A stretch of 64,000 nt of DNA from assembly GCA_025526935.1 (NCBI GenBank), contig JAHLKD010000095.1:124001-188000 (forward strand). Reading direction: 5' to 3'. Both the position numbers and the translations under genes were made by a program. Source of the DNA: Cladochytrium replicatum. Its lineage: Eukaryota; Chytridiomycota; Chytridiomycetes; Cladochytriales; Cladochytriaceae. The notes under the pieces were generated by a model that was not told the DNA's origin, ran no database searches, and saw nothing but the letters and a program-made list of their open reading frames with translations. Of the stretch, positions 5,207 through 63,686 are shown piece after piece (position 1 is the first letter of the stretch; every line of letters begins with the position of its first letter).

Positions 5207-5880
5207 AGTGACTGAGCCTAGAGCTGTTGAGCGTGCTACAGAACAGCAGGAAATCACCTTACCACTGCTCAGAGAAACTCTTGGTTTTTAACATGTTGTG
5301 GCATATACACACCTGGGAGAACAGGTACTGGGCCAAGAGACGGAACCTGGAGCTGTTGTGCTAGCTACAGTACAGCTAAAAACGCCCTACCGCTGCCAGG
5401 AGAAGCCCTTGGTTTTTAACATTGATCCAGTCGATTTTCCAGACTTGGCAGATGGTGAAGCAATTAGGAACCCCAAGATTACTCTGTGCAGCTGTGTTTC
5501 CTTGCTCGGAAGACTTTTGTAACAATGCAGCCCCTGTCCTTTTTCAACTCCAGTTCCATTTTCGTAGCAAACACTGAGACTGGACTGCACATCTGCATTG
5601 TCCTCATCAGAGAGCAGCCCTTTTTGCACCAATGTGCTGCCTGATTAGTATTGTTCTACACCGGTGTCCAAGCTCGTAGCACACACCGCTGACTCTGTGT
5701 ACCAGAAGACTGCTGGATTCAAATCTTTCTCAACTCCATTTCCACTTTTGTAGCACTCTCGAAGATTTTTCTGTGAATTTGCATTCCCGTTATGCAGGTA
5801 CGAAGATGGGTAGCTGCACTGACTGTGTAGGGTGGCAACTGGTGTGGGGGCCAGTTCTGCAGACAATTTACTGTCATATG
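5207..5880 (-). pseudogene. Sel1-repeat gene remnant
   Basis: Minus-strand frames keep at least two Sel1-like repeat cores: NANSQKNLRECYKSGNGVEK (about 5.8 kb) and ADVQSSLSVCYENGTGVEKG (about 5.56 kb). These match the A..Q..LG.CY..G.GVEKD pattern of the intact Sel1 gene at 40459-42676. The repeats are separated by stops and frame changes, and no start or upstream TIR domain remains. A ~90-bp direct duplication at 5207-5291 and 5330-5420 sits at its 3' end. The GNGVEKD and YTESA wording makes a relationship to the TIR-Sel1 gene likely, but a different Sel1 protein could be the source. Confidence 0.65.
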
Positions 5881-6008
5881 CTGACAAACAAGTTGTTACC
5901 TTTTGCAGCTTTAACTGGGAACTGGAATATTTTATTGTTTTATGAACTGCAAGAGAAAAAACCACACCAGAAAAATGTCTAAATGCATGTAATAACTTCG
6001 TTGACTTC

Positions 6009-7112
6009 TCAAGTGGGGCTTGTCGAGTCAGTGTTGGGTGTAATAATCAATTTGTCCGGGACGAGCTGAAGCAAACACGAATTAGATCTCGAGAAACATC
6101 TACCCATCATGTTCCCACCTTAAAGGTTTTGTTGGCGAACATAATGAACCGCTCGTGCAAGTGCGTTTCATTCTAAATTGCAGTGTGAGGTGACGTTTCT
6201 AGAAAGCAAAACCTGCGCTAACCTCAAACATGTAGAATGCCTCTTTGTGGTGATACCAAGCATGAGCAAATATCCGGTATAGTCTCCTCGCAATGCTCTG
6301 AAAGTGTCGAATCGATGATTCTGGGATTGATATTCTAATTGCCCTACTATTAAGTTCAGCAGGCTCACTTTAAGTTGTGCTCGCACCTGCTCGGAAAGTA
6401 TCGCGTGCTGCACAGAAGTGCTGTTGCACCGTCCAATGTGTGTACAGTGTAATCAATCGCGCAGCACTGAGAAAAGAGAATATTGTAGTGTTTCCAAACC
6501 CACGAACCCAATCCGTGTGCGGAATACCGGCTGTGGTTGTGGATGTGTTGCGCAGAGGAACATCCATTCTTCCGCCTTCATTGAGGGACAAAGCTCTGGT
6601 GTGCATTCAGACTCCAGCAGCAACACCAGTCCATTCAATTCGATGCAGAATTGTCTGAGTTTTTTGAGAAGGAGGCGGATCAAGCGTTTCCATCACGGCG
6701 AGAATTTCAAAGATCCCACACCAGACATCATTAAATATCTGTTCCGTTAGTTTTATCGCTGCCATCATACCGTAGATGTTCGTACTGCCACACATCAGCA
6801 TCCTGGTTTTGTGGTAATTTGACGATATCCGACACGTTCGCAGGATCGGCGCGCACCAGTGACCCAATGTATTGCTGCACCGAGAAGGCCGAATCCATCT
6901 CCTCCAGCGGCGTTGTCGGCCATGGACTCCAATCCTTTACCCATTACGTTCAGAACAAGATCGAACGAACTCCAACAATACTGCAGCCACACCTCTGCCT
7001 TTGTCCCCGATCTATTTCTGTGCAGCGTGCGTGCGTTCGTCTGCACGCCCTCAGTCTTCTGCCTGTTGTCGTCGTCCTGGCCGGGCGACTCGTCGGCGGC
7101 GTCCAGCGACAT
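6009..7112 (-). CDS. MOB4: MOB-like protein phocein (MOB4 family)
   Basis: Seven exons fit in phase: complement(6009-6065, 6119-6172, 6223-6334, 6387-6466, 6528-6654, 6771-6934, 6993-7112), giving 237 residues against about 225 in animals. All introns are 50-116 bp with GT..AG ends. Phocein-specific landmarks appear in order: RNRSGTKAE, then [82 protein letters not shown] and [17 protein letters not shown]. The two Cys and two His zinc ligands of the MOB fold correspond to the CTPELC segment and the HAWYHH segment. MOB4 is a scaffold of STRIPAK phosphatase complexes and links PP2A-striatin with Hippo-type GCK kinases. The start codon lies 18 bp from that of the divergent SWIM gene. Confidence 0.93.
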
Positions 7113-10241: not shown

Positions 10242-13200
10242 TTAGTCAACAAGGGTCAAATCAGATTGACGTGTAAGACCAAGTGCGCGTGTGAATTTTG
10301 AGAATAATTTGAATGTCAAGGGTTTTGTGAAAATATCAGCAATATGGTTCTCAGTATCAATATCTCTGAGTTCCTGCTGCTTCTGCTCAATTTGAAGATT
10401 CACAAACTTTTCTCGAACATCCATGTGTTTAGTTCTGTGATCATTAAGCAGGTCATTGGCAATAGACTGTGTAGAGGTATTATCTTGCCAGAGGATCATG
10501 GGCTTACTTTTGGATGAAATACCAATGTTTGCCATGAGGTTTTTCATCCACTTCATCTCACGTGATAATTCATTCAATGCATATAACTCTGCTTCAGTGG
10601 AAGAGCAAGTTATAACCTGTTGCTTTGTAGACTGCCAGCAAACAGCTGCATTGGCAAACATTACAACATATCCTGTCCTGGAATAGCAAGCAGGATCATT
10701 TGCCCAGTCTGCATCAGCATATCCCATAGGGATGTGTTCATTTGATGCAAACTCATATACACCATCAGAATGTACGTTGGGAGTGGGTATGTTGTTGCGT
10801 GTGTAATGCAAACCATAGTCCCATGTTCCCAATAAGTAACGATGCAGGCGAGCTAGTGCCTTTTGTTCGCAAACTCGTGGTTCAACCTGATGTTGTGCCA
10901 AGACATTGACAGCATAAGATGAATCAGGTCTGGTCTTTGTAGCTAGGTACGAGATTTTCATGAGTTCAGAGCGAAAAATAGTTGCATCATTTTTGGATAA
11001 AATAGGCAAGCTTGTTTCATGTTTGTAGTGAGAAGAAATAGGTGTTTTGGCTGGTTTAAGATTGGATTCCCATAATTTCAATCTCTGCAATATTTCCTTT
11101 GCATATTGAGCATTGGTTATGAAATAACCATGAGTAGTTTTGATCAATTGCATTTTCAGAATCCATTTGGCTGTAGAGTGACTTCCGACCTTGAATGAGG
11201 AATTCAAGCCATCCATGAAGTCTTGGTAGCCATTTGGGTCTGGAGAGAAATGAAGAATATCATCTACATGAACAGTAGTGTGTTCACGTATTTTCATAGT
11301 GGAACTGTGAGTAGATGGTTTCATTTGCCAGAAATGACAAGCATCTGAAAGATCACGGATGTATCCCATGTCTTCATATTTTGCCAAGAGGCATTTGTAC
11401 CATTCTCTAGCAGCTTGATGTAAACCATATAAGCTTTTGACAAGATTACAAACTAATGGATTGCCAGATTCGTCAGTCTCTGTAAATCCATGGGGCATTT
11501 CAACATAAACATCTTCCTCAAGTGATGCATTGAGATATGCTCCTGTAATGTCAAATTGATAGATGTGTAATTTGACAATTGCAGCAAGAGCAACTAGTAA
11601 TCGAATTGTAGTGGTTTTCGCCACAGGAGAATAGGTTTTGTCGAAATCCATTCCCTGTATCTGGGAGAACCCTCTAACTACCCATCGTGCCTTGAATCGG
11701 ATGATGTTGCCATCTTCATCAAGTTTGTATGAATAAACCCATTTGCCAGTGAGAAGGTTGTTCCCATTTGGCAAGATGCGTTTGTTCCATGTTCCCAAAT
11801 TGATAAGTTGTTGATTTTCTTCACACATGGCTGCAAGCCAGTATGGCCATTCATCAGGTCGCGACATAGCTTCCTGGACTGTTTTGGGAATACTTCTCAA
11901 GTGTCCTTGAGGTATAGGAACGTCAGGTGTACTCGATTTTGCTTTCTCATTTACATTGACATTGGGGATATTACGTCTCAACAAGGGATGTCTTCGCTGG
12001 GGATGAAATCTGTTTGTTGGAGTAACCATAGGTTGTTTGCCTTTAAGTTTGCGACGTTTGGCTTTGTGTGCAACAAATCCATAATCGTTGTCATCATCTT
12101 CACCAATCCATTGTAAATCTTCCAAATCACTTTGGGAATCATCTTCATTTTGTTCTTGTACGTGTTGTACAGAAAGTGGTACATAAGTGTATTCGTTCAT
12201 GTTTAACGAATGGTTATAGTCGTTGGTGGTATCGTGCTCGTCATCAACATTTGAATCATGTTGGGACATAGGAGTAACACGCATTTGTGAGATATCCATT
12301 CGATGATAAAATCGTTGGTTGGGATCCAACTCCTCATCAGATGAGGTGTTAGCGCTATCATCAGAATCTGAGTCTGTAGTATTGTCATTATCGCTATTCA
12401 TATCAGGTAAATTTGAAATATCAAAATGTTGACCCTGAGGAATAGGATAGTGTTTGGTGAGGTCATTTAAAGTTTGTGATGTTGGGTTTAAGCCAACAAA
12501 TACTCCCTCATGAAAAGTAAAATGAAAATATTCGCTTATGCGTTTGGTATTAAGATTCAAAGCATGAATGATTTTCATATCTTCACCCTTATAACCCAGA
12601 AATAGTCCTAGCTCTGACTTCTCTGATACTTTGCGACTAGACCTTTGTTCTGGAGAAATCCAGAGACTAACCAGGGTACCAAAGGTGTGAATGATTGCCG
12701 GATCAATCAGCTTGTCAAAGTGAACAGTATGTGGTACATTCTTAGTTCTAGAATGGTAAACACAATTTTTGACAGTCGCAGCATAAAGGATGGCAAATTT
12801 GATGAACTGTAAAGTATGTGGAAGACCAGCTGTTTTCAGCATAGACTTGTACATCTCTTTCATTGAACGGACATTCCGTTCAGCAAGACCATTTAGCTCT
12901 TTGACTGATGCAGGTGAAGGATGGGCATGTATGCGTGGTACCTTGTTACTGCACCAAGTCAAGAATTGGTTTGACAATAGTTCTCCAGAATCGGATCTCA
13001 CTTCATAGACGTGAAGTGGCAGAAATCTATTTTCAACATCTGCGATGTGTCTTAGCATACTATCAGAGGCTTCGCTCTTTCGTTGCAAGAAGTAGATTGT
13101 GATGTGAGAACTGTATTCATCTACGATAATCTGCCAGTGACCTATTGTTTTGCCATTTCGGACAATTGGTACTGCATCAGTATGTAGGCGATATAATTTC

Positions 13201-13559
13201 CTCAGTGCTGGACTTAGCGTTGAGTAAATTGGAGTTTGTACAGCCTTAGTCTGATTGCAAATTATGCAGTTCTGTAAAATAGACAAGTTAACAAAATCAA
13301 GTGCATCACTCCTGACTTTGGGCAGTTTCTTTCCCAGAGAATGTAAAGTTTGCAGGATTTTCCGCAAATGTATGTGACCAAATTGCCGGTGTAATCTAGC
13401 TAATTTGTTGATGGTCACAGCTGAAACGTTGTTTACTCCATTATCAGCCATTGTTTGGGAGTATAGACTTAATGTTGCAGATGAAGCTCCGTCTAAAACT
13501 TCACCCCCGTAATTTCTAGTTTTGTTAGAATCTTTTGGGAAAACATTGTTGTCCTTCAC
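10242..13559 (-). CDS. pol: copia integrase-reverse transcriptase-RNase H
   Basis: This long open frame (about 1,105 codons) has no ATG at its start and must be reached by a frame change from the protease. The order is: HHCC zinc-binding region (HRQFGHIHLRK ... CIICNQTKAV); integrase core with the catalytic acidic residues in HTDAVPI, VRSDSGELLS and LNGLAERNVR; a long acidic linker with many D/N/S; reverse transcriptase with FKARWVVRGFSQIQGMDFD and the active-site motif VHVDDIL; RNase H with YADADWANDPACYSRTGY, SSTEAELYAL and WQDNTS; and the terminal NHIADIFTKPL. Catalytic residues look intact, so the enzyme part could be functional if expressed. Confidence 0.93.
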   Translation of the reverse strand: MKDNNVFPKDSNKTRNYGGEVLDGASSATLSLYSQTMADNGVNNVSAVTINKLARLHRQFGHIHLRKILQTLHSLGKKLPKVRSDALDFVNLSILQNCIICNQTKAVQTPIYSTLSPALRKLYRLHTDAVPIVRNGKTIGHWQIIVDEYSSHITIYFLQRKSEASDSMLRHIADVENRFLPLHVYEVRSDSGELLSNQFLTWCSNKVPRIHAHPSPASVKELNGLAERNVRSMKEMYKSMLKTAGLPHTLQFIKFAILYAATVKNCVYHSRTKNVPHTVHFDKLIDPAIIHTFGTLVSLWISPEQRSSRKVSEKSELGLFLGYKGEDMKIIHALNLNTKRISEYFHFTFHEGVFVGLNPTSQTLNDLTKHYPIPQGQHFDISNLPDMNSDNDNTTDSDSDDSANTSSDEELDPNQRFYHRMDISQMRVTPMSQHDSNVDDEHDTTNDYNHSLNMNEYTYVPLSVQHVQEQNEDDSQSDLEDLQWIGEDDDNDYGFVAHKAKRRKLKGKQPMVTPTNRFHPQRRHPLLRRNIPNVNVNEKAKSSTPDVPIPQGHLRSIPKTVQEAMSRPDEWPYWLAAMCEENQQLINLGTWNKRILPNGNNLLTGKWVYSYKLDEDGNIIRFKARWVVRGFSQIQGMDFDKTYSPVAKTTTIRLLVALAAIVKLHIYQFDITGAYLNASLEEDVYVEMPHGFTETDESGNPLVCNLVKSLYGLHQAAREWYKCLLAKYEDMGYIRDLSDACHFWQMKPSTHSSTMKIREHTTVHVDDILHFSPDPNGYQDFMDGLNSSFKVGSHSTAKWILKMQLIKTTHGYFITNAQYAKEILQRLKLWESNLKPAKTPISSHYKHETSLPILSKNDATIFRSELMKISYLATKTRPDSSYAVNVLAQHQVEPRVCEQKALARLHRYLLGTWDYGLHYTRNNIPTPNVHSDGVYEFASNEHIPMGYADADWANDPACYSRTGYVVMFANAAVCWQSTKQQVITCSSTEAELYALNELSREMKWMKNLMANIGISSKSKPMILWQDNTSTQSIANDLLNDHRTKHMDVREKFVNLQIEQKQQELRDIDTENHIADIFTKPLTFKLFSKFTRALGLTRQSDLTLVD

Positions 13560-13570
13560 TGTGTCAAACC

Positions 13571-14212
13571 TTACACCAGACGTGGTTGCTCTTGGGCAGT
13601 GTTTGAAGTGGTACCAGGTAAAACATTCTGTTTGCCAACAGAGAGTGCAGAATTAGAAAGATTCGTCAAAATAGCTGCACCTATTTTGGAAGAGTGTTTG
13701 AGAAATGGATTAGTAGTATCCAAACTTCCATGAAGATAATATAAACCTCCACGTCTTAAACCAATGGTAACACATTGTTCAGTTCCTTTGTTTGACAAAT
13801 AGACTTTGTCTTTGGTGAAACTGACTATATCACCTTCATCCCCGATGATGCTATAGACAGATATAAGTGTATCCTCTAAATCGGGAACAAAAAGTGTATT
13901 TTGAATGTGTTTTATTGAACCATTTGACAAAACAAGTGCAATATCTCCATAGCCTTTAATAGGAATGGGATGATTGTCTGCCAAGTAAACATCTCCTGCA
14001 TCATTAACGTAAAATAAATTCTTGAATGCATGTCTGTCTGGAGTCATCCAAGCAGTAGCACCAGAGTCAATCAAACCAAGAGGTTTGGCATTTACGTGTA
14101 GATTGCAGTTGGTACTCTTCAATGCTTGCTGGAAGGTTCTGATTCCTGAGAATCGATATCCATGTTGTGGGATGTTGAGGAAGAAGCACGAGATGCTTTT
14201 ATCTGTTTCCAT
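13571..14212 (-). CDS. copia aspartic protease region
   Basis: The frame encodes a retropepsin-like domain with the active-site motif LIDSGATAWM and strands ADNHPIPIKGYGDIAL and TLFVPDLEDTLISV, typical of the Ty1/copia protease just upstream of integrase. It overlaps the end of gag by 94 bp in a different frame. It ends at a TAA 12 bp before the integrase frame opens, also in a different frame. Either programmed shifts or two indels are needed for one Gag-Pol polyprotein. Confidence 0.85.
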   Translation of the reverse strand: METDKSISCFFLNIPQHGYRFSGIRTFQQALKSTNCNLHVNAKPLGLIDSGATAWMTPDRHAFKNLFYVNDAGDVYLADNHPIPIKGYGDIALVLSNGSIKHIQNTLFVPDLEDTLISVYSIIGDEGDIVSFTKDKVYLSNKGTEQCVTIGLRRGGLYYLHGSLDTTNPFLKHSSKIGAAILTNLSNSALSVGKQNVLPGTTSNTAQEQPRLV

Positions 14213-38848: not shown

Positions 38849-39292
38849 ATGACCGGGCACGGTCAACAACAATTTGATGTGAGCAGGCTGGCATTCATGG
38901 AATGTGCGAACGGCTAACTTTGTGTTGTTCGAAAGGTAATGCTCAGCTATCCATGGGCTGACCAGCACAGGGTATGTGAAATCAATTCCGTACGAAGCTC
39001 ACCATTCTGACCGCAGATTCGATTCATCCAGGTGTTTAAAATCAGAGACAAGCTCCGCGAACGTGGTGCAGGTGTCTGGATCCACGTCGAGTGCATGCAT
39101 GGAAACATTTTCACCGCAATGGCGAACGCGATCCTCAGCAGCACAGTCTTTGTTGCGTGCATCTCCCCGGCTTACGAGAGGAGCGTAAACTCTGCTCGAT
39201 TTCCACAATTCAAGAACTTAAACTCGTCCAAATTTGCTCGCATCAATCATTGCCTTCTCAATGTACTTCAGAGTCAGACCACTGTCGCCTGA
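38849..39292 (+). pseudogene. truncated TIR-domain gene (paralogue of TIR-Sel1)
   Basis: Three exons (38849-38878, 38936-38971, 39032-39292) splice like the first three exons of the neighbouring TIR-Sel1 gene and would give 108 residues. The start MTGHGQQQFD, then VMLSYPWADQHR, then VFKIRDKLRERGAGVWIHVE and ILSSTVFVACISPAYERS, are near-copies of the intact gene. After AYERS the sequence diverges (VNSARFPQFKNLNSSKF), losing the segment that holds the conserved glutamate, and it stops at 39292. No Sel1 repeats follow. It is either a dead duplicate or a TIR-only product without catalytic capacity. Confidence 0.7.
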
Positions 39293-39843: not shown

Positions 39844-42676
39844 ATGACGGGGGAAACCGAGGTTGGAGCGGAACAGGCAACGTTGCAGACTTTCGATGTG
39901 GGTGAACAGCAATGGAGATTGCGAGTAGGCGTGTATTTTAACCTGGCAGCCTTGCCTTGCAGGTCATGCTCAGCTATTGTTGGGCCGACCAGCAGAGAGT
40001 GAGCCTTCGGCACTACCTTGATACCCAACATCTTTCAAATGCTGACCATTTCTAGGTCTTTAAAATCAGAGACAAACTCCGCGAACGGGGTCTGCGTGTT
40101 TGGATCGATGTGGAGTTCATGGAGGGCGACATTTTCGACGCTATGCCTACTGCAATCCTCCACAGCTCGGTCTTTGTCGCTTGTATCTCGTCGGCTTACG
40201 CAAAGAGCAAAAACGCAATGCGCGAATTCAAGTTTGCTCACAACAGAGACCGAATCTCGGCCTACATCTTACTCAGCGACGATCCTATCCATTCATCCAT
40301 CGAGTTTCTGATGGGTTCCGCACTTTATCAAAAGTGTTTCAATGACGATGATCTTGATTACAGCGTCGCCGCTGATTTTGTGTTGAGACAGCTTCCTCAA
40401 CAAACGTCAGTTAACTTCAAAATTGCTTATTAATATCCTACTCATTGCTTCAATTTAGTTCGCCAGAAACTGGACGCTCCTACGTGAACTTGAAATCCCA
40501 TGAACTGTATGATGCTCTCGCAATCAATCTCCCAAAGTACTATGACGCACTGAGTGGCGATCCAGCTGCGCAGAATTTCATTGGGAAGCGCTACTATGAC
40601 GGAAATGGAGTTGACCAAGACTATTGTCGTGCAGTACAATGGTTTCAGAAAGCTGTTTTGCAGGAATACTCAGAGAGTCAAAGAAATCTTGCAGAATGCT
40701 ATGAGGAAGGAAATGGGATTGAAAAAGATGCAAGCCTGGCTCTGCAATGGTACAAAAAATCAGCCAATCAGGGCAATGCGAGTGCTCAGAACAAACTTGG
40801 ATGGTATTATCAGACTGGATATTGCGTTGAAAAGGACGTGAGCATAGCTGTGCAATGGTATCAAAAGTCAGCAGAAAATGGAGATGCAGGTGGACAGAAC
40901 AGTCTTGGGTTGTGCTATAGAAATGAATGCGGAGTCAAGAAAGACAAAAGCCTTGCTGCATATTGGTTTGAAGGGTCAGCACTACAGGGCAACATATCTG
41001 CGCAGTTCAATTTTGGATATTGTTTAGAAAAGGGAGAAGGTGTTCAGAAAGACATTAATGAGGCTCTATATTGGTACAGAAAAGCTGCAGATCAGAATGA
41101 TGCTGATGCACAGAATAGACTGGGGTGGTGCTATCAAAGTGGATGCGGTGTTCCGAAAGATCAATGGTTGGCGTTCTACTGGTACCAAAAGGCTGCAGAT
41201 CAGGGCCACGCAGCTGCACAGAACAATATTGGATGGTGTTATCGAACTGGCTTTGGGGTTGAGCTGAATGAAAGTCAGGCAGTGTTTTGGTATCAAAAGT
41301 CTGCAGATAATGGGAATGCAAATGGACAGCACAATCTTGGATGGTGTTACAAAAATGGAATTTGTGCTGAGAAAGATGCAAAAATGGCAGTATATTGGTG
41401 CAGAAAGTCAGCAGAACAGGGAAATGCACCTGCACAGTTTGTTCTTGGATTGTGCTACGAAAATGGGGAAGGGGTTGAGAAGAACATATCTCAAGCAGCA
41501 TCTTGGTACAAATCTTCAGCAGAGCAAGGAGATCCGGATGCACAATTCAAGATTGCAATGTGCTTCACAAAGGGTATTGGAGTTGAGAAAGACGGGAATG
41601 AGGCACTGTATTGGCACAGAAAATCAGCGGATCATGGGAATGCTGCAGCACAAAATAGTATTGGGTGGTGCTATCAAAATGGATTTGGCGTTGAAAAAGA
41701 TTCGATGCAGGCATTTTACTGGTACACAAAATCAGCAGAAAGTGGGTTTCCATCAGCTCAGCGCAATCTTGGATTGTGCTATCAAAAAGGAGATGGGATC
41801 GAGAAAGACTTCACTCAGGCGGTGTATTGGTACAGAAAGTCTGCTGAACAGAATGACGCAGATGCACAAAATAGACTGGGATTGTGCTATCAACATGGAC
41901 ATGGGATTGAGTTAGATAGTGAACAGGCAGTCTATTGGTACAGAAAATCAGCAGAGAAGGGTAATTCAGCTGCACTGGATAGTCTTGGGTGGTGCTACAA
42001 AACTGGATTTGGCGTTGTGAGTGATATGGCAGAAGCAGTAAAGTCTTTCAATATGTCAGCCGAAAAGAATAATGCAAGTGGACAGAACAATCTTGGATTA
42101 TGCTATCAAAGTGGGCTAGGAGTACACAAAAACAAAGAGTATGCAGTAACTTTGTTCAAGAAGTCAGCGGATCAGGGCAATGCACATGGACAATTCAACC
42201 TTGGGTGGTGCTACCAACATCAAGATGGTGTGGAAAAAGACTACGATCATGCAGTATATTGGTACAGAAAGTCAGCCGAGCAAGGACATTGTTATGCTCA
42301 ATATCATCTTGGCTTGTGCTACAAGAAGGGATTGGGAGTTCAGAAAAATGATCTAGAGGCGGTGCAGTGGTACATAAAATCAGCAGAGCAGGGGCATGCT
42401 GGTGCTCAGTGCAAACTCGGGATGTGCTTTCAAACGGGCCATGGTATCGAGAAGGATGCCAAGAAAGCAGTGTTTTGGTTTTTGAAGGCAGCTCATCAAG
42501 GTGAAAAGGGTGCACAATACAAACTGGGAAAGTGCTACGAGCATGGAGATGGAGTAGAGAAGGATGGCGAACAGGCGTGGTATTGGTACCGCAAGTCATT
42601 AGAGGGTGGTCATTCCCGATCAGAGCATTCGCTAATTCTGATGACGTTGCGACGGAGCGGACTCTCTTCCGATTGA
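39844..42676 (+). CDS. TIR domain fused to 19 Sel1-like repeats
   Basis: Four exons (39844-39924, 39963-39998, 40056-40405, 40459-42676) join in phase to 894 residues; introns are 38-57 bp. Residues about 28-150 form a TIR domain: VMLSYCWADQQR, RVWIDVEFMEGDIFDAM, ILHSSVFVACISSAYAKSKN, AMREFKFAHN (Glu96 fits the position of the NADase glutamate of SARM1/plant TIRs) and ISAYILLSD. From about residue 190 there are 19 consecutive 36-residue Sel1-like repeats, for example ADAQNRLGWCYQSGCGVPKD, ending shortly before the stop. Sel1 repeats build superhelical protein-binding scaffolds. There is no signal peptide or membrane segment. TIR domains act in innate immune signalling and NAD+ cleavage in other phyla; the role here is unknown. 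All repeats lie in one exon. Confidence 0.9.
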
Positions 42677-61525: not shown

Positions 61526-63686
61526 CTAAACCGGGTGCAAGCCATTCCTAAGGTGAGTGAACAAATCCTTCCCCAAAGGCTTTGTCAAGATATCTGCCAA
61601 GTTCTCTCCATTCGAACATTAACAGGCTCCGCAATGTTCTCCGCTATAGCCTCCCGGACAAACTGTAGTCGGATTTCCACGTGTTTGGTTCTTCCTCGCT
61701 CAGTCAGGTTGTGCAAATATGCAATGCACGCTTGATTGTCTTCGAAGATGGTGAACGCCTTCTTCAGTGCAAAATTGAGCTCTCCGAGAAACATCTTGAG
61801 CCAGATCGCTTCCTGTGTCGCCCCTGCAAATGCGTAAAATTCCGTCTCCATGGTCGACAGTGCTGGGGACCGCTGCAGCTGCGACTTCCAGACAATCGGT
61901 CCACCGTTAGGCAGAAACACGTAGCCAGTTGTGCCATGTCTTGTAGTCGCATCCGCTCCAGGACCGCTTGCATCGCTATAGCCTGTGATCTGCAGACCGC
62001 CAGCCCCGCTGAATTCGATTCCTAGGTGCTTGGTGCTGACCAAGTATCGCAGAACTTTTTACCGCCTTCACGTCCTCTGCGCATGGATCCTCGAGGTGCC
62101 GTGAGGCTTCCATGATAGCGTGGGCGATATCAGGTCTGGTGCCTAACATCAACAACATCAACGCTCCTACTGCTTCCCGATATGGATACTCGCCCTTGGC
62201 AATTGGTGTACGTCGTCCATCTCGTTGCTCTTCCGGCGTTGCCACTGGGTTCGCCTCGTCCATCTTGAATTTCTTTAAGATCTTTTCGACGTATGTGGTC
62301 TGATCCAACCGCAGGCTTCCACCACCACCGCGAGTTATTCGCATTCCTAAGTAACTCTCGGCATCCTCCTCCTCGCTGATTGCAAACGCTGCCCGTAAGA
62401 TCTCAAAAACCTTTTCAACCATTGCCAGCGGTCCTGCCACTAGTGCATTATCTACAAACACCGCAACTAGCGCCGAGCTCGCCAGGTTCTCATTCCACAG
62501 GACGTAGACGCACGAGTTGCTTCGTAAGCGCCGCAGCCCAGATTTTTGCATTTTCTCATCAAACTCCCGATTCCACTCCATCGCCGACTGCCGCAGACCG
62601 TAGCGAGCCCTTGAAACCAAGTATACCTTGCCCGTTCTGTTGCCTTTGACCTCCGGCGGAAATTCCACATACACTTTGTGTTTCAGCAGCGCGTTGAGGT
62701 AAGCTGTCCATACATCTCCCTTCTTTAGTTTCCATCTGAAGGTTGCGGCTAGCGCGCAAATCAGTCTGAGGGTGACAAAGTCAAGCACTTGCACAAACGT
62801 TTCATCAAAGTCCACTCCTGCGCACTGCGAGAATCCTTTGGCGACAAGTCGAGCCTTAAACCAGTCGTGTTGCCCATCTGCATGAACCTTTCTCCTCAGG
62901 ACCCACTTGCACCCCACAGCCCGCTCTTCAGGTGGTAGATCGACTATCTAGAACACTCCCATCGCGGCAAGTGCGGCAATTTCAAGCTGCATCGCCTCGA
63001 TCCACTCCGCCCGGAAAGGTGATGCCATCGCTTTGTCTAAGGTTGGTGCCTCGGGTTCGCTGTCCACAGCTTCCAGCGCTACATCGCTCCGCGTACCAAT
63101 GAGGTCGTCCACAGTAACGTCCTCAGGTCCTTCTAAATCGGCCAAATATCCAAAGTCCCTCGGTGCAGGAACTCCTAAAATTTCCCTCAACGACGGTAAA
63201 GGTGTCCGTGGCCAGGCTTCCCAACCCGGCAGTACATCAAACACTTTCGCACTGTTGAACAAAGCTCCGCGAGTGAAGCTGTTTTCCAAGAATCGGGCAT
63301 GGTGTGATGTGATGACTCGCCCAGTATCCCACTGGTAAAACATCCACGCCCAAACCTTATCCATTCCAATGAAGATCATTCGCCAGGCTCGATCTCCCAT
63401 ATTCACATCATGCATACTTGCCGGGATCAGTACGTACGCATCACAGCCGAAGACCCGGACTCGACTTACGTTTGGTTTCTTTCCGTACCAGCACGCGTAG
63501 GGCGTTATTCCTTGCTGGGACTTCTTCGGCAAACAGTTTGAGATAATGATCGAGTACTTCATCGCGTATTCCCAGAACTGCTCCGGTAGGTTTGCGTGAT
63601 GAAGCATACATCAAGCGCGCGTCAGAATCGCTCTGTTTGTGCGTTCTGCTACTCCGTTGTGCTGGGGAGTGTACGGCTCTGTCGAC
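61526..63686 (-). pseudogene. pol: dead Ty1/copia pol fragment
   Basis: From 5' to 3' on the minus strand: integrase core STEPYTPQHNGVAERTNR, a stop, then CMLHHANLPEQFW ... GCDAYVLIPASM; a TAG inside GVF-IVDLPPEERAVGCKW; reverse transcriptase FKARLVAKGFSQCAGVDFDE ... AVFVDNALVAG; a frameshift near 62010; RNase H ITGYSDASGPGADATTRHGT ... STMETEFYAFAGA; another frameshift near 61610; and ENLADILTKPLGKDL to the stop at 61526. In the reverse transcriptase active site the second Asp of YVDD is Asn (FVDN), so the copy was catalytically dead even without stops. It is a different lineage from the element at 9476-16151 and is cut upstream by a hAT-like insertion at 63687. Confidence 0.9.

Follow-up and report, generated by a model that had tools for sequence, protein, structure and literature searches.

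The locus described here lies in a window of 64,000 nt from Cladochytrium replicatum (C95:124001-188000, in an assembly of 50.5 Mb on 198 contigs) and consists of one intact gene at window positions 39844-42676 (+), whose four exons encode a TIR_2 domain followed by 19 Sel1 repeats. Exon 1 (39844-39897, 18 codons from a predicted start codon) encodes a short N-terminus that ends with the Phe-Asp of TIR box 1, and after intron 1 (39898-39962; 65 nt, GT...AG) comes an exon of 36 nt (39963-39998) that carries box 1, VMLSYCWADQQR. Intron 2 (39999-40055; 57 nt, GT...AG) separates this from exon 3 (40056-40405), which supplies the remainder of the TIR domain, with the Pfam TIR_2 match and with Glu87 inside the motif KNAMREFKFA. 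Intron 3 (40406-40458; 53 nt, phase 2) falls at the TIR/Sel1 joint, and exon 4 (40459-42676) holds a linker, the 19 repeats of 36 residues and the stop codon. The initial annotation had placed a TIR domain directly before a Sel1 array at this position and Pfam searches of its 894-aa model bear this out (TIR_2, 59.5 bits; Sel1, PF08238, 605 bits and E = 1.6e-188, with 18 stretches over the cut-off on their own). One revision concerns the first 5' splice site. Because the Phe-Asp codon pair, then GT, closes exon 1 in all five TIR-Sel1 paralogues, we moved this site to GAT/GTGGGT, after 39897 and not 39924, and the TIR_2 score of the gene rose from 59.5 to 63.3 bits. With exon 1 ending at 39897 the protein is therefore 885 aa long and Glu96 of the earlier model becomes Glu87: the glutamate is present in the catalytic segment as claimed and its number is not the one given.

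The assembly contains five TIR-Sel1 genes, with 19 (the window gene, C95), 16 (C88), 10 (C141), 6 (C13) and 2 (C123) repeats, and the repeat spacing in the four paralogues' arrays is also 36 residues. TIR_2 (PF13676) exceeds its curated cut-off of 28 bits in every one of them (63.3 bits for C95; 60.4 to 67.7 for the other four). A doubt that attached to the initial annotation was whether the TIR exons are joined to the Sel1 exon, and the paralogues argue that they are: (i) introns 1 and 2 are in phase 0 in all five models; (ii) in each of the five genes the second exon measures exactly 36 nt and includes TIR box 1, either as VMLSYCWADQQR or in a variant form; (iii) four of the genes have an intron at the joint, in every case of phase 2 and with the frame kept; and (iv) C13 (L030, 4281-3067, minus strand) has no need of a junction intron, most of its TIR domain and all six Sel1 repeats sharing one open frame of 405 codons (433-aa model; TIR_2, 63.7 bits; Sel1, 215 bits). 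Because most of the TIR domain and all of the Sel1 array stand in a single exon in C13, this gene supports the fusion without RNA. Judged by comparison of the paralogues, which is good but indirect evidence, the fusion is real.

Individual members of the family have features of their own. C88 reads WINLVRTDDN instead of WIDVEFMEGD, a change in the stretch after box 1; it is perhaps altered in function, and some family members may be inactive. The C123 paralogue (L032, 4306-5647) has, besides its two repeats, a Pro-rich linker and a WW domain in frame upstream of the TIR domain. The C13 model starts with MGANAS, which we take to resemble an N-myristoylation signal and which would suggest membrane attachment of this one paralogue. 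No membrane span is obvious by hydropathy in the five models, in which the 19-residue value never exceeds 1.75, and no hydrophobic N-terminus was found in the models that include a start codon (four, C123 being the exception), where the TIR domain begins within 30 residues of the protein start. In a tree of 19 TIRs, with 3 of 16 branches starred as supported, a single clade for the five TIR-Sel1 genes was not rejected (AU p 0.131), and C126, a TIR with no Sel1 match nearby, grouped with C141 and C123.

When the family profile A2 was compared with solved structures, the first matches were enzymatic TIRs, namely Cat1 (1.6e-11), Roq1 (3.4e-7) and bacterial TIRs (1.7e-6 to 2.1e-5, the last value being that of AbTIR), with C. 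elegans tir-1 at 7e-5 and SARM1 at 7.8e-4. Two SEFIR proteins (1.4e-4 and 1.7e-4) stand above SARM1 and a non-enzymatic receptor TIR, the TLR15/TLR2 entry (2.8e-3), not far below it, so similarity alone is no proof of an enzyme; TLR1 (0.19) and MyD88 (0.35-0.54) come far lower. The initial annotation had located the catalytic glutamate by motif position, and five profile alignments agree, setting the Glu of the family on a Glu of Cat1, Roq1 (two alignments) and two bacterial TIRs, residues that we presume to be catalytic. It is kept in every aligned TIR row, that is, in 8 of 8 (A1), 12 of 12 (A2) and 19 of 19 (tree alignment), these 19 having been selected from at least 79 TIR places in the genome.

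The five TIR-Sel1 proteins read NAM(R/Q)E where Roq1 reads WCLEE, which puts Ala where plant TIRs have Cys, three residues before the Glu. Cys occupies that position in several other TIRs of the genome, including those of two NLRs (L047 and L048). PMC9153377 describes the catalytic Glu of plant TIRs and gives the neighboring Cys a role in plant TIR 2',3'-cNMP synthetases, a residue that the five TIR-Sel1 proteins do not share with those enzymes. Over 76 codons of the TIR domain, the window gene and C13 show a difference of 0.76 at synonymous and 0.14 at non-synonymous sites; purifying selection is thus acting on the domain. Pfam searches of the whole 894-aa first model found no NTPase (NB-ARC, NACHT or NPHP3_N) between TIR and repeats at E up to 1, and no ARM or SAM domain. 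Modelling exon 3 of the TIR by itself with AlphaFold2 gave an uninformative structure (pLDDT 42).

With regard to the Sel1 array, a profile built from its own repeats counts 19, every one exactly 36 residues long (19 of 19) and all in one exon, just as first described; Sel1 proteins in the PDB match it with E-values down to 7.7e-116. The accompanying view of very alike repeats, recently expanded and under diversifying change, did not survive closer comparison. Identity averages 46% for amino acids (28-67%) and 59% for nucleotides (maximum 72%) when all 171 pairs of repeats are compared, and Tandem Repeats Finder picks up part of the array only (3.8 copies, 67% matches). Uncorrected pS between repeats averages 0.70 and exceeds 0.5 in 160 of the 171 pairs; given that synonymous sites are near saturation, the array is by this measure old. 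Mean pairwise pN of the repeats (0.34) is below pS, as in the TIR comparison of C95 with C13, and thus pairwise pN/pS, judged within one genome and with synonymous sites near saturation, gives no sign of diversifying selection on the array. Between the window gene and C13, best matches are reciprocal for repeats 1 and 2, and C88 repeat 1 has its best match in repeat 1 of the window gene; the best match lies inside the same gene for 14 of 19 repeats in the window gene, 13 of 16 in C88, 6 of 10 in C141 and 3 of 6 in C13 (C123 left out). We infer from this pattern that the C95, C13 and C88 arrays share an old start and that their interiors grew mostly gene by gene, long ago. In a modest way such separate growth agrees with the idea of an expansion, though not with a recent one, and it carries no sign of diversification.

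The initial annotation also reported further TIR and Sel1 relics within the window, and both kinds are there. A TIR frame at 39011-39289 (+) lies directly upstream of the intact gene in the same orientation (E = 3.3e-23; 75% nucleotide identity over 177 nt) and is without the Glu, reading VNSARFPQFK against KNAMREFKFA in the intact gene; decayed Sel1 repeats in several frames occupy about 5379-6046 (-). Elsewhere, a frame-broken, decayed Sel1 array lies about 15 kb from the intact C88 gene. A genome DNA search found no near copy of the window gene, the other 14 matches being 65-75% identical. RVT_2 reverse transcriptase frames flank the gene, one about 26 kb off at 10245-13652 (-) and the other about 19 kb off at 61979-62947 (-). 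Another Sel1 gene, which has no TIR, occurs on two contigs in very similar copies (L050 on C24 and L051 on C9), and their close similarity implies that some loci are represented in the assembly by recent duplicates or by both haplotypes.

Of 79 TIR places (a lower bound, 71 + 8 from two genome searches), 6 are followed by a same-strand Sel1 match no more than 5 kb downstream, these being the five genes and the window TIR relic. A TIR lies within 1.5 kb upstream of 36 of the 59 NPHP3_N matches in the genome; these NLR-type genes form a large family, many of them on contigs C61, C63 and C80. In one of them (L047, on C61) a domain scan gave NPHP3_N-WD40, and a TIR shares that reading frame; judged by eye, its WD40 repeats and those of L048 (C80) show a striking likeness. 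HET matches number 19 in this genome, in keeping with a fungus. Four further TIR frames belong to putative gene models: beside a VIT domain (38 bits) on C98 (L041), a weak, below cut-off galactose-binding-like match on C126 (L045), a second TIR on C56 (L042) and a likely membrane span, judged by eye, on C16 (L038). Taken together, the relics and the many TIR-NLR genes suggest birth-and-death evolution.

Our preferred reading, which we consider evenly poised between right and wrong, is that the TIR-Sel1 protein is a cytosolic, NTPase-free, one-component receptor in which the Sel1 array is the sensor and the TIR domain the NAD-consuming effector. The array would fold into a long superhelix and recognize a ligand, either a protein or a peptide, from the organism itself or from outside; ligand-driven clustering would join the N-terminal TIR domains into a composite active site; and the clustered TIRs would consume NAD+ via Glu87 and so kill the cell or halt its growth. 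TIR effectors act in this way in other systems, but here the NTPase switch that an NLR has would play no part. Every step, from the binding of a ligand through clustering and NAD cleavage to cell death, is predicted. Clustering by ligand is the simplest mechanism because no NTPase and no obvious membrane span were found. The immune or self-recognition role put forward in the initial annotation may be considered more plausible because there are many TIR-NLR genes in the same genome. Counting against this reading are the Ala in place of the plant Cys, the altered stretch of C88, the receptor and SEFIR matches near SARM1 and the lack of a sign of diversifying selection on the array; Sel1 proteins also act in secretion, ERAD and cell-wall pathways. 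In its support stand the shared exon plan of the five paralogues, the invariant Glu, the enzymatic TIRs at the head of the profile matches, purifying selection on the TIR domain and the many NPHP3_N matches with a TIR upstream. In addition, other lineages combine Sel1 repeats with death effectors of other kinds, as cited below, and TIR NADases need their TIRs to be brought together (PMC9153377).

A second scenario, which we think unlikely, is that the protein is a non-enzymatic adaptor, its TIR domain docking onto other TIR proteins (e.g. the TIR-NLRs of this genome) and its Sel1 array recruiting partners, and thus a signalling scaffold. Possible partners are plentiful among the TIR-NLR genes, C88 has kept an open frame with the stretch after box 1 changed, a receptor TIR (TLR15/TLR2) was matched at 2.8e-3, and Sel1-like repeats are termed adaptors for complex assembly in PMC7145615. 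However, an adaptor accounts poorly for a Glu kept in 19 of 19 aligned TIR rows and for best profile matches that are enzymatic TIRs, with TLR1 and MyD88 far below. Rather improbable, in our estimation, is that the TIR domain is an enzyme of ordinary signalling or stress control, making for example a cyclic ADP-ribose-like messenger, and has no part in immunity or self-recognition; this would be consistent with a conserved TIR domain and with the lack of a sign of diversifying selection, and no observation ties TIR-Sel1 to non-self, but copies seem to have been born and lost, to judge by the relics near C88 and in the window, and such turnover is commoner for conflict genes. Finally, some bacteria use TIR and Sel1 proteins to manipulate hosts, and LpnE and LceB are among the proteins whose fold matches the Sel1 exon, yet it is very improbable that a parasitic fungus exports the protein, or directs it at a host, as an effector acting on host NAD or TIR signalling, as the four models with a start codon have no hydrophobic N-terminus and begin their TIR within 30 residues of the start.

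Several Sel1 proteins of the group that includes SEL1L, HcpC, LpnE and LceB are secreted or lumenal; they share the Sel1 repeats with our family and have no TIR domain. The known TIR NADases (Cat1, the Roq1 and RPP1 TIRs, AbTIR, other bacterial TIRs and SARM1/tir-1) are like the putative TIR-Sel1 enzyme in profile (A2 E-values of 1.6e-11 to 7.8e-4) and in the Glu of the catalytic column, which in these enzymes belongs to helix C, whereas its partner is a Sel1 array and no NB-ARC, SAVED, SAM or ARM was found. SARM1, in particular, has ARM and SAM before a C-terminal TIR, while TIR-Sel1 has, by Pfam, neither of these and an N-terminal TIR. The central NB-ARC, NACHT or NPHP3_N that defines NLR/STAND receptors is missing from the Pfam results for TIR-Sel1. 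Fungal NLRs, which combine a HET, TIR-like or other effector with an NTPase and WD40 or TPR repeats, are similar in having an N-terminal effector and C-terminal superstructure-forming repeats; they differ in the NTPase, and the Sel1 repeats are old whereas the WD40 repeats of L047 and L048 are very alike by eye.

There is precedent for death effectors that carry Sel1 repeats. Sel1 occurs in 40 putative prokaryotic metacaspases (6.0%; PMC3501461), on MLKL-like proteins of Glomeromycotina (PMC8778642) and with a Sir2 effector in Avs5 (PMC12931631); the effector fold is a different one in each, and Avs5 has a STAND NTPase. Other papers report NB genes with Sel1-like repeats in an alga (PMC7145615), mention TIR NLRs for Chytridiomycota and TIR-like effectors for Pezizomycotina (PMC9815663) and, in a review, credit fungi with a TIR-like HET domain (PMC9153377). 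We found no report of a TIR-Sel1 fusion in the open-access literature, in so far as its text was consulted, in keeping with the initial view of an undescribed combination. What is new here is that a superstructure-forming repeat array carries a TIR effector and no NLR switch, the effector-plus-repeat plan itself being known.

We tentatively suggest, while holding it to be doubtful at present, that TIR-Sel1 proteins represent an NTPase-free class of TIR receptor in a fungus, in which the Sel1 superhelix alone would sense the ligand and set TIR clustering, beside TIR-NLRs and HET proteins in one genome, and in which evolution would act on the number of repeats (2 to 19). Since both NPHP3_N-WD40 and Sel1 carriers of TIR domains occur here together with HET proteins, this genome lends itself to the question of NAD+ cleavage by fungal TIRs, and equally to the question of whether repeats suffice to activate a TIR. 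The five paralogues, with 2 to 19 repeats, provide a natural series on array length versus activation. If NTPase-free TIR-Sel1 receptors do exist, the effector-plus-repeat receptor plan would work without the NLR switch.
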